Source: Spartobacteria bacterium (GTDB taxonomy: Bacteria > Verrucomicrobiota > Verrucomicrobiia > Chthoniobacterales > UBA10450). Taken from it: a stretch of DNA of 64,000 nucleotides. The notes under the pieces were generated by a model. It worked only from the letters and a program-made list of their open reading frames with translations, searched no databases and was not told where the DNA came from. Numbering within the stretch: position 1 is the stretch's first letter; the number at the start of each line of letters is the position of its first letter. Location: contig PMTM01000012.1 of the NCBI GenBank assembly GCA_003167365.1, forward strand, positions 159,928 through 223,927, read 5' to 3'. Made by a program: the position numbers and the translations under genes. Positions 510 through 6,000 of the stretch are shown one piece after another.

Positions 510-624
510 TCTGGTGATAATAGCGCAGTGGCACCACCCGTTCCCATTCCGAACACGGCAGTGAAACGCTGCAGCCCCGATGGTAGTACGACGATAGGTT
601 GTGCGAGAGTAGGACGTCGCCAGA
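510..624 (+). rRNA. 5S ribosomal RNA
   Basis: A 115-base 5S rRNA. The ends TCTGG and CCAGA pair to form the terminal helix, and the core has the conserved CCCATTCCGAACACGG loop region and the GAGAGTAGG segment. It follows 23S in the usual 23S-5S order and is followed at once by an intrinsic terminator. Confidence 0.93.
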
Positions 625-625
625 A

Positions 626-665
626 CAAAATGCCCGGTGGGTTAATCTCATCGGGCATTTTGCTT
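626..665 (+). terminator. Rho-independent terminator of the rRNA operon
   Basis: A strong hairpin with arms AAAATGCCCG and CGGGCATTTT around a loop near 638-650, flanked by A-runs and T-runs so it can act in both directions. It ends the rRNA operon and lies 14 bases from the stop codon of the convergent gene at 679, so it may serve both transcripts. Confidence 0.85.
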
Positions 666-678
666 TTACAATTGAGGG

Positions 679-1614
679 CTACCGCAAAGACGCGTTAACA
701 ACGAGTCTTTCCAACTCGGCTTCAAGCTCGTCGGCCTGATCCAATAACCCGTCGAGATCTTTGCCATCAAGAAGCACCATAACACTTTCTTCATGCGAAT
801 ACCGCAACTCATGATTACGGGCGTCATTTGAGATCGAATTGGCAGAGCAAAGAAAGCCCAGTTTGCACATTCCTCTGCGGTTCTTCATTTTCGCCGCGAG
901 ACTAGTCACCGCTGGCGCGCCGGCACCCCCTTTCGAATTTTTACCAGAAAGCAAAACTACTGGGCTGCTCGGCCAACAGCGACCGTGAACACGTCGATTA
1001 AGAAACACCGCATCAATTTCTTCCGTTTCGGTACGATAATTGTGATTAAACAATTCGAAGTCGGATACCTGACTGAAGAGGAGACACAACAATCTTTCAA
1101 AGAGCCGCCCCCGAATATGCCTATCGGTTGCTGCTCGTGCGTTCCCCAACGTCTTTCGTCCGATCAACTGAAGATTGCTTGGAGCAACAATTAGATTCTC
1201 TCCGGCTACAAGGTCGACGATCGTGTCGTAGCCTTTCGCCTTCCAAATTTTGCCTGACAATCGCAACACGATTCCCGCGGCATCAAGTTCATCAGCCGCA
1301 AGTATCGTTTCATTCGCATACCAGCAGCTTAGCGGTGCAGCTATCGTGACCTGCCGCTTAGCTTTTTTGGCAGCAGCCATGCGCTTTGTCCAATGATCTC
1401 GAAGAACAGAAACGGCATGAACATGACAGGCGCGCTTGGCGGAAACTAAATGCGGGCGCCAATTAGCAGGCGTTAGTCCTAGCGATTTCTTCGGCTGCTT
1501 CCATTCGGCGTCGAGTTTTTGTATCGCCGTCATCATCTTGGCGACGTCGGCTAAGTCGAATTCGTTCGCGCTTGCGACGTCCTTAGCCTCATCTTCTCTT
1601 GACTCGATAGCCAC
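679..1614 (-). CDS. Mrr/restriction endonuclease-like protein, possibly catalytically altered
   Basis: A 311-residue protein of unknown function, third gene of a leftward cassette, 12 bases after the ParB-like gene. It starts at GTG. The C-terminal half resembles the Mrr-type PD-(D/E)XK fold: GRLFERLL with E173 in the first helix, EIDAVF with D201, a hydrophobic strand PVVLLSGKN with K225, then SLAAKM and a GFLCSANSIS strand. In typical Mrr proteins the strand reads (E/Q)xK; here the acidic or Gln position is S223. Nuclease activity is therefore uncertain, and the domain may bind DNA without cutting or use another residue. The N-terminal 150 residues are not recognised. Fold assignment is by motif only. 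Confidence 0.6.
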   Translation of the reverse strand: MAIESREDEAKDVASANEFDLADVAKMMTAIQKLDAEWKQPKKSLGLTPANWRPHLVSAKRACHVHAVSVLRDHWTKRMAAAKKAKRQVTIAAPLSCWYANETILAADELDAAGIVLRLSGKIWKAKGYDTIVDLVAGENLIVAPSNLQLIGRKTLGNARAATDRHIRGRLFERLLCLLFSQVSDFELFNHNYRTETEEIDAVFLNRRVHGRCWPSSPVVLLSGKNSKGGAGAPAVTSLAAKMKNRRGMCKLGFLCSANSISNDARNHELRYSHEESVMVLLDGKDLDGLLDQADELEAELERLVVNASLR

Positions 1615-1626
1615 GCCTAGGGGGTC

Positions 1627-2577
1627 TTATCCGGTAAAACGAGCGAGCCTTTTCTCCAGTGAAGATACAAGATTTTCGACGCTATTGAGGACGAGCTTCT
1701 TTTCGTCCTCCTCTTTGGTCTTCCGCATCAATCGATCGAACCGCTTGACCAATTGGGCGCATTGACGTCCAAATTTTTCCGCCTCGACGATCATTTCGAC
1801 AGTGTTTTCGTACGTGGCTTGAATTGTCTGCTTTGGCTTTTCGATCAATCCGACGATCTCACTATCCAGGTCTGACTTGGCCTCTGGAGACTTTGCTTCC
1901 TCGGATGCCACTTTGATAATTGGACGGACCTGTCGAAGATCTACGGTGTCGGAAATAATGTTGTTCAACTTCTTCCGAACAAATGCTTTTAGAATTCTGC
2001 GTTCGCCATATTTCCTAAAGATAGCGGGGCGATACTTCGCTAATGGATCTATGACATTTGCCTGCAGTTCGAAAAAAAAGTTTAGCGGGACTTTGCCGGT
2101 GTCGATCAAGTTTTGATATTCCACAGGTAGCCGAGTAGCAAAAAGCATCCTGCGGATTTGCGGAACCGACAGCCCCGTCAATTCACGCAACTCTTCGGCT
2201 TCATTCACACCGGTTCGATCAACAACCTTTTGGAGAGCCCAAGCCGTGGGCATGTCGTCCCAGGCATCCCGAACCAAATGAATGTGGAACATCGTTAGAA
2301 TGTTCTCCTTCTTGTCCGGCTTTGGGATGATGATCGCTGGGATCTTTTTCAGTCCGAGTTCTTTCGCGCAAATCCAACGACGCTCGCCATCGACCAACAC
2401 GTATCGCTTCTTGCCTTTACCGCTCTTTTCATAAACAGAGACCGGTACCAAAATTCCCACCCGCGCGATTGATTCGGATAATTGTTCCAATTCCTCGCGA
2501 GGGAAATGAAGGCGTGGATTTTCCTTATTGCGCTCGATTTCGTCGGGCGAAAGCGCTTTTAGATCGTGCGGTTCCAT
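1627..2577 (-). CDS. ParB/Srx-fold (ParB N-terminal domain) protein
   Basis: A 316-residue protein with a ParB N-terminal domain at about residues 7-105. It has NPR at 20-22, the SI..VGIL.PV segment at 35-46, and the CTP-binding-type GERRW..A at 64-71 followed by LGLKKIP. A helical DNA-binding region follows, with an HTH-like ELTGLSVPQIRRML at about 132-145. The C-terminus (about 215-316) is long, charged and helical and could dimerise. The partner ParA expected in chromosome partitioning is not adjacent; the neighbours are a Dam-type methylase 12 bases upstream and an Mrr-like protein 12 bases downstream. A role as a DNA clamp or specificity factor of that cassette is inference. Phage and plasmid ParB-like proteins are the nearest remembered relatives. 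Confidence 0.8.
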   Translation of the reverse strand: MEPHDLKALSPDEIERNKENPRLHFPREELEQLSESIARVGILVPVSVYEKSGKGKKRYVLVDGERRWICAKELGLKKIPAIIIPKPDKKENILTMFHIHLVRDAWDDMPTAWALQKVVDRTGVNEAEELRELTGLSVPQIRRMLFATRLPVEYQNLIDTGKVPLNFFFELQANVIDPLAKYRPAIFRKYGERRILKAFVRKKLNNIISDTVDLRQVRPIIKVASEEAKSPEAKSDLDSEIVGLIEKPKQTIQATYENTVEMIVEAEKFGRQCAQLVKRFDRLMRKTKEEDEKKLVLNSVENLVSSLEKRLARFTG

Positions 2578-2589
2578 TTTTGAATCCGA

Positions 2590-3375
2590 TCAATTGAAAA
2601 TCAGCAATTCGCGCGCGTATCGACGATGTTTCGCGAAACCTGCGACGTTCCGGCGAACACGCACTAACTTTGTTTTGAAACCCTTCGCTAAAAACCATGC
2701 TTCTTTGCATACAGCATAACTAACCAAAAACTTTACCTTGTTCGCAGCTAATTCCTCCAAACAAATGCGCAATCGCCAAATACTTCCGAAGTCGAATTGT
2801 GAAGGATCGTACTCACGAAAAACGCGTCGGGAACTAACGGAAAATGGCGGGTCAATGTACACGAAGTCACCGCACTTGGTTCGACTCAATACTTTCTCGA
2901 AATCGCCGGAGACAAGAACAACCGAACGCAGCGCGCCTGCGTGTTTTCGCAAGTTCCTTGGAATCGCGCCGCTCGCCTTCCCGCCGTAAGGCACGTTAAA
3001 CTCACCCCTCCTGTTTGTTCGATAAATCCCGTTGAAACAACAACGATTCAAGTAGATGAACCGGGCTGCTTTGTGAGCACGTGTGGCGCTTCGTCTGTTG
3101 GTTTTGCGGCGTCGCAGAAATTCTTTTTTGCTCTTTCGGAACCGGCGCAGTCGATCAGTTACGTCTTTATGACGATACTTTACGTCTCGGTAAGTTCGAA
3201 TTAGGTCGCCATTGATATCCCCAAGAAGCGCTTTCTTCGGCTTCAGAGAAAAAAACAGGCAAGCAGAGCCAGCAAAAGGCTCAACGTACCGCTCGTAGCG
3301 ATTCTCGTCGAAATAGTTGGCTAAGGTGGGAACAATTTGTCGCTTGCTGCCCGCCCATCGCAGAAAGGGCTGCAT
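2590..3375 (-). CDS. D12-class (Dam-type) DNA adenine N6-methyltransferase
   Basis: A 261-residue protein with all hallmark motifs of Dam/DpnM-type enzymes. FLRWAGSK is at the N-terminus (SAM binding) and YVEPFAGSACLFF at 30-42. LGDINGDLI is at 51-59 and YLNRCCFNGIYR at 108-119, followed by GEFNVPYG. The catalytic motif is DPPF at 175-178, with RRYARELLIFN at the C-terminus. It should methylate adenine in a short site; GATC would be typical but cannot be read from sequence. The ATG at 3375 is preferred over a TTG at 3402 because family members start just before FLRWAGSK. It is the first gene of the cassette. It is visibly more AT-rich than the ferritin gene at 3919, suggesting acquisition. 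Confidence 0.9.
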   Translation of the reverse strand: MQPFLRWAGSKRQIVPTLANYFDENRYERYVEPFAGSACLFFSLKPKKALLGDINGDLIRTYRDVKYRHKDVTDRLRRFRKSKKEFLRRRKTNRRSATRAHKAARFIYLNRCCFNGIYRTNRRGEFNVPYGGKASGAIPRNLRKHAGALRSVVLVSGDFEKVLSRTKCGDFVYIDPPFSVSSRRVFREYDPSQFDFGSIWRLRICLEELAANKVKFLVSYAVCKEAWFLAKGFKTKLVRVRRNVAGFAKHRRYARELLIFN

Positions 3376-3487
3376 GTCAGTTTGTCGCAGAGCAAGGCCC
3401 AACCGTCAACAGAAACAGCATTGGTCCGTTAGCATTGGAGGTCTTCACTCGACCGCCCCAACTAACGGGATAAACTGGAGAGATTGA

Positions 3488-3889
3488 ATGAAAACAAACC
3501 CCACTAGAATAATTTGGACTGCAGAAATGCGCCGCCTGTTGTACGCATGTTTATTATCCGAGTTCGGACCACATCGAGATTGGAGCGGTTCGCGTTACCC
3601 GAGAGATCGACGGACAGAGTTTCACGCTCTACTTACGAAATTGGCCGGCGTGTTTTCTACATTAACCGGAAAGACCATTACACGCGATGCAGTTGAACAA
3701 CAGGTGGACTGGGGAATTACCGTGCAAAAAGAGATCAAAAGTAATGGGCATGCCCGTGCTTTCATAATGAACAAGGCGGCGGCCTTGGACGTTGGTTTTA
3801 TCACAACAGCAGATCTGCCTGCGTTTATGAGCGTCGGTAAACACGGCAGCCTTTCAGCACAGCGGAAGAAAATTCTAGATCAGTTGTAA
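3488..3889 (+). CDS. hypothetical protein divergent from the methylase cassette
   Basis: A 133-residue soluble, basic protein that I do not recognise. It starts at ATG after a good ribosome-binding site (TGGAGA about 7 bases upstream). It has no signal peptide, membrane segment or clear HTH. It is transcribed away from the Dam-type gene across a short intergenic region (3376-3487), so it may share a promoter region with the cassette and could regulate it. Its base composition resembles the cassette rather than the ferritin gene 29 bases downstream, so it probably belongs to the same inserted block. Function unknown. Confidence 0.6.
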   Translation: MKTNPTRIIWTAEMRRLLYACLLSEFGPHRDWSGSRYPRDRRTEFHALLTKLAGVFSTLTGKTITRDAVEQQVDWGITVQKEIKSNGHARAFIMNKAAALDVGFITTADLPAFMSVGKHGSLSAQRKKILDQL

Positions 3890-3918: not shown

Positions 3919-4431
3919 ATGCTCACCAGTAAGAAAGTTATCAACGCCATCAACGAACAGATCGGGTACGAGTTCAGTGCTTCGATGCAGTACTACGCGA
4001 TCGCGGCGCATTTTGCGGCGGAGGCGTTGCCGCAGTTGTCGCAGCATTTTTTCAAGCAGGCGGAGGAGGAGAAAGGTCATGCGTTGCGCTTCATCAAGTA
4101 TGTGGTCGATGCGGGCGGGCGCGTGGTGATTCCCGCGATCGACGCGCCGAAAGCGCACTTCAAGACGCCGAAGGACGCGGTCAAGCTTTCCCTCGATCAA
4201 GAGGTCAAAGTGACCCATCAGATCAACGCGCTCGTCGAGCTGGCGCGTTCGGAGAAGGATTACATCACTTTCAATTTCCTGCAGTGGTTCCTGACTGAGC
4301 AGCTCGAAGAAGTTTCGTCGATGGATAACCTTCTCAAAATCGTCCAGCGCGCGGGTGACGACCTGCTCCAGGCCGACGAGTATCTGGCTCGCGTCGGGGT
4401 GAAGGCGATGCCCGAGCCGCCGAAAGAATAG
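3919..4431 (+). CDS. non-haem ferritin
   Basis: A 170-residue four-helix ferritin that stores iron in the cytoplasm. Ferroxidase-type ligands are visible: E in IGYEFSASMQYY (helix A), EEEKGHALRF (helix B, ExxH), and helix C-D residues in QWFLTEQLEE. GGRVVIPAIDAP forms the usual linker. Length and motif order fit bacterial Ftn rather than bacterioferritin; I see no clear haem-binding Met. It starts at ATG with AAAGG upstream. It marks the return to the GC-rich chromosomal background after the methylase cassette. Confidence 0.9.
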   Translation: MLTSKKVINAINEQIGYEFSASMQYYAIAAHFAAEALPQLSQHFFKQAEEEKGHALRFIKYVVDAGGRVVIPAIDAPKAHFKTPKDAVKLSLDQEVKVTHQINALVELARSEKDYITFNFLQWFLTEQLEEVSSMDNLLKIVQRAGDDLLQADEYLARVGVKAMPEPPKE

Positions 4432-4569: not shown

Positions 4570-4848
4570 ATGAAAATGAAATTACTCCTTAGCCTGGCAG
4601 TCATAGGAAGTTTCGCGCTCAGCGCGTCATTCGCTCAGATAGCGGCCCAAAAAACACAAATCACTGGGAAAGTGATAGCGATCACGGCCACCAGCATCAC
4701 AGTGCAGAGGGCAAATGAGAAAGGGGTATGGGAGATTCAAACGGGGACTGGGACGGATACAACGGTAACCGGCAAAGCGGAAGTCGGCGCAACCGTAACG
4801 GTGAGTTGCATCCAGACGAATGCTCAGAAAAAGGAAGCCCCACTCTAA
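4570..4848 (+). CDS. small secreted protein, OB-like (DUF5666-like) repeat unit
   Basis: A 92-residue protein with a clear Sec signal peptide (MKMKLLLSLAVIGSFALSAS followed by FAQ). The mature part is about 60 residues: ITGKVIAITATSITVQ, then a WEIQ.G..T.VTG strand and VGATVTVSC. This alternating-strand pattern resembles DUF5666-type OB-like domains. It is similar to the protein at 5584 and both share a C-terminal NAQKKE motif, so the two are paralogues. Function unknown; periplasmic location inferred. Confidence 0.7.
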   Translation: MKMKLLLSLAVIGSFALSASFAQIAAQKTQITGKVIAITATSITVQRANEKGVWEIQTGTGTDTTVTGKAEVGATVTVSCIQTNAQKKEAPL

Positions 4849-5399: not shown

Positions 5400-5583
5400 C
5401 GAGGCGCATGAGTATTCCGACTTCTCCACTGGCGTGGCAAGCGGATTCTGATTGCCGCGGCGGTCATCAAAACGATAACTGGGCTGTCAGGGAACTACCC
5501 GGCGCAACCTATCCGATCTAACGATCGAGCGATTCTTAGCTTAAGTCTTGCCTCGCGGACGGTTCCGTCCTGTAATCGCCGGC

Positions 5584-6000
5584 ATGATGAAAACCAAGAC
5601 AACATTTAGTTTGTTGGCCATAGCCAGCTTGGCCTTGAGCGGTGTCGCTTTCGCCGGCGGGAAGACCTACCAAGCCACGGGGCAGGTGGTCAAAGTCAGC
5701 GCCGCGATGGTCGTGATCCAGAGCGGCACCCAGAAATGGGAGATCGCGCGCGACACAACCACCAAAGTCAAAGGCGACCTCAAAAAAGGCAACACCGTAA
5801 CGGTCACATATACGATGAACGCCACCGCAATGGATGTGAAAGCGATGCCCGCGGCACCTGCTGCGACAGCTGCACCGGCGAAGAAAACTGCACCGCCGAA
5901 GTTAAAAGCTTCCGCCCCGACCACGTCTGCCGCCGGGGAGCCGAACGCGCAGAAAAAAGAACAGCCAGACGCTACAGCCACTCCTACTCCCGACGAGTAG
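5584..6000 (+). CDS. small secreted protein, paralogue of the 4570 protein
   Basis: A 138-residue protein with a Sec signal peptide ending GVAFAGG. A short OB-like domain follows (YQATGQVVKVSAAMVVIQ, then KWEIARDTTTKVKGDLKKG and TVTVTY). The C-terminal tail is low complexity, rich in Ala, Pro, Lys and Thr, and shares NAQKKE with the paralogue at 4570. Two adjacent Met codons (5584, 5587) can start it. A copy of the TGTCGATCTT motif lies two bases after the stop codon, at 6002-6011. Function unknown. Confidence 0.7.
   Translation: MMKTKTTFSLLAIASLALSGVAFAGGKTYQATGQVVKVSAAMVVIQSGTQKWEIARDTTTKVKGDLKKGNTVTVTYTMNATAMDVKAMPAAPAATAAPAKKTAPPKLKASAPTTSAAGEPNAQKKEQPDATATPTPDE

Follow-up and report, generated by a model that had tools for sequence, protein, structure and literature searches.

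Relation to described systems

Operons that join a gene of the HEPN family MAE_28990 to genes for a ParB nuclease and a DNA methylase were listed in a survey of 2013 (Anantharaman et al., PMC3710099). They are a clear forerunner of the system described here, a three-gene operon in a 64,000-nucleotide stretch of DNA from a Spartobacteria bacterium (contig PMTM01000012.1; "the window" refers to this whole stretch), and they reduce its novelty. The operon encodes a D12-class adenine methylase, a member of a separate ParB subfamily, and a third protein that is a candidate effector. It belongs to a module, found also in other genomes, in which the methylase and ParB genes form a conserved pair within a tight operon, the third gene is exchanged between several forms, and some copies lie in or beside restriction-modification (R-M) loci; in the window, the operon is an insertion between a ribosomal RNA (rRNA) operon and a ferritin gene. 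The module shares with the MAE_28990 operons a HEPN RNase gene beside ParB-fold and DNA methylase genes. However, its HEPN proteins have no match to Pfam HEPN_MAE_28990 (PF18737; 15 members) and carry an N-domain resembling restriction endonucleases (REases), and the survey was not found to describe replacement of the HEPN gene by an Mrr, PRTase-CE, HD or PLD form. A search for HEPN_MAE_28990 in nine genomes plus controls gave no match even in the controls, so that search alone is uninformative. An earlier note on this DNA, made from its letters, had named no known system of this composition; PADLOC-DB holds none, but the operons of the 2013 survey qualify that statement. The effector exchange, the specific pairing with D12 methylases and the form embedded in DpnII operons were not found described in a literature search to which subscription journals were mostly closed.

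Several other systems share parts of the module. The DpnII/MboI type II R-M systems (DpnM, DpnA, DpnII) are related through the window methylase, which is nearest to DpnM, and two relatives of the module lie inside a full DpnII operon. The window differs in having no DpnII in its operon or genome and no second methylase in its operon, and the classical DpnII form is without ParB and effector. Proteins of the ParB/Srx fold are known in defence from GmrSD (DUF262-DUF1524) and DndB/DpdB (PMC10952713, PMC10853773, PMC12839542), which likewise combine a ParB-fold nucleoside triphosphatase with DNA modification in a defence setting. Unlike these systems, the module has a true ParB/Noc-type N-domain followed by a helix-turn-helix (HTH), lacks DUF262 and HNH DUF1524, reads DGERRW where GmrSD has DGQQR, and has D12 methylation in place of phosphorothioate or deazaguanine. 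PRTase effectors occur in retrons, in DS-32 of NCBIfam, and in DprA-PRTase, which gives protection against T7 and lambda (PMC9122126). Seven relatives of the window operon have a PRTase-CE-like third gene, but a match to NF053875 is weak and far below the cut-off of that family. The sensor is reverse transcriptase with multicopy single-stranded DNA in retrons and DprA in DprA-PRTase, whereas the putative sensor side of the module would be the methylase and ParB.

A conserved methylase-ParB pair with an exchangeable third gene

Full-length relatives of the window ParB protein were first found in Verrucomicrobiota, and a profile of the C-terminal half detected relatives in Acidobacteriota, Myxococcota, Alpha- and Gammaproteobacteria, Bacteroidota and archaea. 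Of the 27 subfamily ParB loci, 23 have a D12 methylase gene within 1.5 kb, whereas none of 59 ordinary ParB loci does (Fisher p 4e-17); three of the 27 came from searches that started from the methylase, and without them the pairing is 20/24. Most loci have the gene order methylase, ParB, third gene, with spacings from an overlap of a few nucleotides up to ~100 nucleotides. The subfamily is rare and patchy, occurring in ~3/384, 4/347 and 2/398 genomes of three samples. The methylase-ParB pair is present on three distinct viral contigs, cultured phage records gave no convincing full-length match to the ParB subfamily, and a search of 72,556 plasmids found no close relatives of the ParB protein, the matches there being ordinary ParAB ParBs. 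The co-occurrence of three families that the earlier note proposed as a check is thereby seen for two of them: the methylase-ParB pair recurs, but the third gene varies and its Mrr-like form was found in the window only.

The middle protein of the operon was correctly recognized in the earlier note as a ParB-N protein with a GERRW box. Its sole domain match is ParB_N (6.7e-19), it also matches TIGR00180 (4.7e-22), and a profile of the subfamily matches ParB and Noc structures at 2e-24 over both the CTPase domain and the HTH. The GERR box is kept in 23 aligned members, and a further member (L114) has GQRR in its place. The ParB_N CTPase fold, the GERR box and the HTH are thus held in common with ParABS partition proteins, but box III (ENxxR) is replaced by F-x-I-H-x-x-R-x-x-W with a two-residue insertion, which is invariant in the 23 aligned members. 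No parA gene adjoins the subfamily ParBs at the loci read, and the neighbours in the window are the methylase, the effector candidate, rRNA and ferritin. The glutamate of box III in ParB supports CTP hydrolysis, and because this box is altered, the subfamily proteins may be slow or non-hydrolysing clamps, or may use another nucleotide. ParB folds can bind ATP or GTP, according to a survey of 2025 (PMC12704722). The subfamily is separate from the ParBs of ParAB systems both in a tree and by score (E 1e-66 and better, versus 1e-24 for the others, in the 384-genome sample). Phyla are mixed in the ParB tree, and effector types follow its deep branches.

The methylase call of the earlier note, including the intact DPPF motif, is upheld by matches to Pfam D12 (1.7e-42) and NCBIfam 'dam' (6.4e-57). 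The closest solved structures are DpnM (2dpm, 1.9e-37) and then E. coli Dam (9e-24), and because DpnM is the nearest, GATC is the likely target. GATC itself is neither avoided nor enriched in the window (observed/expected 1.04). A single D12 gene, that of the operon, was found in the genome. Modules of Alphaproteobacteria have a longer and divergent D12 enzyme (Pfam D12 1e-16 to 5e-6 among those scanned).

The earlier note had read the third gene as a DNA nuclease, which is not borne out for the module in general. Classes counted over 28 loci are HEPN (16), PRTase-CE (7), HD-like (2), a PLD-like motif (1), uncertain HEPN-like (1) and Mrr-like (1, that of the window); the gene is therefore exchanged between HEPN, PRTase-CE, HD-like, PLD-motif and Mrr-like forms. 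HEPN-class proteins are ~285 amino acids long, with an RNxxxH motif that is invariant in the 15 aligned of the 16. An AlphaFold model of one of them (pLDDT 92.8) consists of two domains, the first of which (residues 1-127) matches proteins of the REase fold (3dnx, Z 9.4; 2vld, Z 8.6; XisH-type 2okf, Z 8.5) and the second (residues 144-283) HEPN proteins (Csm6, Z 9.1; HEPN toxin 7bxo, Z 7.7), with weak Foldseek E-values and with Z scores of a size that can by itself reflect a common arrangement. Because no ExK is seen in the N-domain, it is probably non-catalytic. PRTase-CE domain matches of the second class range from 2e-39 to 4e-22. The HD-like class comprises two loci encoding a ~500-amino-acid protein with an HDIG match of 0.007, and the PLD-like protein of one locus has an HDRY motif; a PDB search with the latter gave no match, so its label refers to this short motif only. 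The REase-like N-domain is common to three effector classes: that of the HEPN class matches the HD class at 3e-5 and the PLD-motif protein at 7.6e-6, and in the latter case none of 200 shuffles scored as well.

The third protein of the window itself has no direct match in Pfam, PADLOC, PHROGs or NCBIfam, nor a Pfam HEPN match. Among 388 genomes from the phylum that were searched, it matches a 176-amino-acid protein (30% identity, 1.7e-10), and because that protein itself hits Pfam Mrr_cat (1.3e-8), the Mrr-fold call of the earlier note is right, as to kinship, for the C-terminal half. The catalytic part of that call fares less well. Alignment with relatives shows that EID is kept but that their ECK is SGK in the window protein; the active site is thus incomplete, and the domain may be inactive. 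Kinship with Mrr_cat proteins is what the window protein shares with Mrr and type IV restriction, from which it differs by SGK for ECK, by another N-domain, and by its methylase and ParB partners. An AlphaFold model from a partial alignment has a helix-strand order like that of the REase core, at a confidence too low for use (pLDDT 42.8). The N-terminal ~130 amino acids weakly resemble the N-domain of the other effectors, with a WRP motif aligned. Neither genomes nor viral contigs yielded a match when the third protein was the sole query, and the Mrr-like alignment matched nothing in viral contigs, nor did the Mrr-like profile in PDB. A second relative is annotated as 'restriction endonuclease' on a Kozakia plasmid; it was rejected as a member of the module, as it adjoins SIR2 and has no methylase or ParB. 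On this Kozakia baliensis plasmid (L003:2337-6413) the Mrr-like gene is followed by genes for a SIR2 protein and an ATP-binding protein, with toxin-antitoxin genes and an IS110 transposase on the flanks, and the whole looks like a separate defence cassette.

Two loci connect the module directly to R-M. The operons of L063 (a Flavobacterium metagenome-assembled genome) and L125 (G1019) encode a D12 methylase, a DpnII REase (8e-96 and 7e-90, respectively), ParB, a HEPN effector and a second adenine methylase. The ParB and HEPN genes stand between the REase and the second methylase (L063:6618-11843, L125:6279-10810), and these operons are apparently R-M systems with a built-in second line. Elsewhere, the module is followed by a type III Mod/Res pair (L051) or by type I genes, HsdM/HsdS (L053).

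Possible function and alternatives

We consider it fairly likely that these genes form a horizontally acquired, methylation-linked defence module that combines a conserved D12 methylase and an unusual ParB clamp with an exchangeable effector. The methylase would mark host GATC sites as self, and ParB with its nucleotide could load on DNA and report the methylation state, or failure of the methylase. The effector N-domain might dock on the ParB-DNA complex, and unmarked infecting DNA would then lead to release of the C-terminal domain. Because most effectors are of RNase or PRTase type, infection would typically be aborted, through RNA cleavage (HEPN) or attack on nucleotides (PRTase). The window variant might attack DNA with its Mrr-like domain, if this is active at all, and the licensing of a nuclease by a sliding clamp, which the earlier note had suggested, would fit this variant only.

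A more specific proposal is made tentatively. A ParB clamp that does not hydrolyse CTP, or that uses another nucleotide, might read adenine methylation and arm interchangeable suicide or nuclease effectors through the REase-like adaptor, alone or as a second line in DpnII operons, in bacteria and archaea. ParB clamps are known from chromosome segregation. A subfamily that is wired to a DNA methylase and exchangeable toxic effectors would extend the ParB switch to immunity, and would suggest how a cell could couple the checking of a DNA mark to suicide rather than to simple cutting. The copies in DpnII operons bring the module into a well-understood GATC system in which it is testable.

Several points weigh against the defence reading. 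For every member, we infer a defence function from its genes alone, and the closest relative is the single ground for GATC specificity. Four subfamily loci (L046, L124, L066 and L067) have no adjacent D12 gene, so that the HD and some PRTase forms, at least, may be able to do without methylation. The Mrr-like domain of the window lacks the E of ExK, and the link of its protein to the common N-domain is weak (1-2/200 shuffles as good). Moreover, R-M neighbours were looked up at chosen loci, with no matched control.

One alternative is a small R-M system of the classical kind: the ParB-like protein would be only a transcriptional regulator, similar to C proteins, and the third gene would encode the restriction enzyme. 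The window pairs a methylase with an Mrr-like nuclease as this requires, but third genes elsewhere mostly encode RNase-type HEPN or PRTase proteins and no DNA nuclease. The R-M interpretation of the earlier note survives in the several copies in or beside R-M loci and not in the usual nature of the third gene. The two copies inside DpnII operons might also favour a small R-M system, but these operons already own a restriction enzyme, so that ParB and effector are an addition. A regulator could use the ParB-type HTH, yet the protein is conserved over its full length and its nucleotide pocket (GERR) is invariant in the aligned members, beyond the needs of a repressor. Such a regulator might bind the imperfect inverted repeat in the intergenic region (Table 1), which is a possible, if weak, candidate for an operator or loading site, but a comparison with other modules revealed no shared parS- or operator-like repeat upstream. 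We judge this alternative improbable.

It also seems unlikely that the genes constitute a toxin-antitoxin or addiction module guarding the methylase, in which loss of methylation, of a plasmid or of an island would free the effector and the benefit would be stable maintenance instead of phage defence. HEPN and PRTase domains commonly occur in toxins or in abortive infection, and the cassette is small, mobile and found on viral contigs, but close relatives are absent from the plasmids searched and copies sit in or beside R-M loci. An addiction mechanism is, in any case, a neighbour of the defence reading and not exclusive of it.

Insertion between the rRNA operon and the ferritin gene

The earlier note described three leftward genes with 12-base gaps, followed by a divergent gene of no known kin, in an AT-rich block behind the rRNA terminator that looked inserted. 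All of this was found (Table 1). Because four genomes of the same family have 5S rRNA and ferritin genes with nothing between them (distances of 68, 288, 362 and 471 bp, geneless), the operon is an insertion at this site. The flanks of the relatives align with the window up to 666 and again from ~3906, and the insert has a GC fraction of 0.493, compared with a minimum of 0.534 among 112 other 3.2-kb segments. The divergent open reading frame (ORF) falls inside the insert, and no homologue of it was detected in Pfam, PADLOC, PHROGs, NCBIfam or further searches. For the methylase, a start at the ATG at 3375 is likelier than at the upstream TTG at 3402.

Table 1. Features of the inserted operon and its flanks, in window coordinates
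Feature	Position	Strand	Basis or remark
5S rRNA, last gene of rRNA operon, left flank	510..625	+	Rfam RF00001, 87.1 bits
rRNA-operon terminator; left edge of insert ~667	628..666	+	sequence; relatives align up to 666
Third gene, effector candidate, 311 amino acids	679..1614	-	C-terminal half Mrr-like PD-(D/E)XK via intermediates
ParB-subfamily protein: ParB CTPase fold and ParB-type HTH	1627..2577	-	Pfam, NCBIfam and structure-profile matches
D12-class adenine methylase, Dam/DpnM-like	2590..3375	-	Pfam, NCBIfam and PDB matches; DPPF motif intact
Imperfect inverted repeat, 18-nucleotide arms, 72% complementary	3426..3468	.	between operon and divergent ORF
Divergent ORF, 133 amino acids, within insert	3488..3889	+	no homologue found
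Ferritin gene, right flank	3919..4431	+	Pfam Ferritin 1e-38

An integrated plasmid or phage remnant, consisting of a partition ParB, an orphan phage methylase and a decayed third gene, would also be inserted, AT-rich and patchy, would draw on ParB and D12 genes that are common on phages, and would explain the missing catalytic glutamate of the window nuclease, but it is very unlikely, given that the pair recurs across many phyla in tight order, that no ParA gene lies beside the subfamily ParBs read, that the subfamily is distinct from the ParBs of ParAB systems, and that the ORFs of the window are all intact.

Proximity to transfer RNA (tRNA) genes is not a general property of the modules. Transfer-messenger RNA genes lie ~4-6 kb or less from two of them (L052:13510-13861 and L122:1108-1459), and at L060 a fragment resembling the T-arm 3' end of a tRNA occurs ~247 bp upstream of the methylase; these are possible integration scars. 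In the 5S-ferritin interval of another genome (L138, G393), the 5S 3' end and terminator are present twice behind the rRNA operon, which suggests that the tail of this operon may be a site of recombination or insertion in the family. Near ferritin, the window encodes two small, exported-looking proteins (4570-4848 and 5548-6000, + strand) that resemble tandem paralogues, each with a signal peptide followed by a short beta-rich core.

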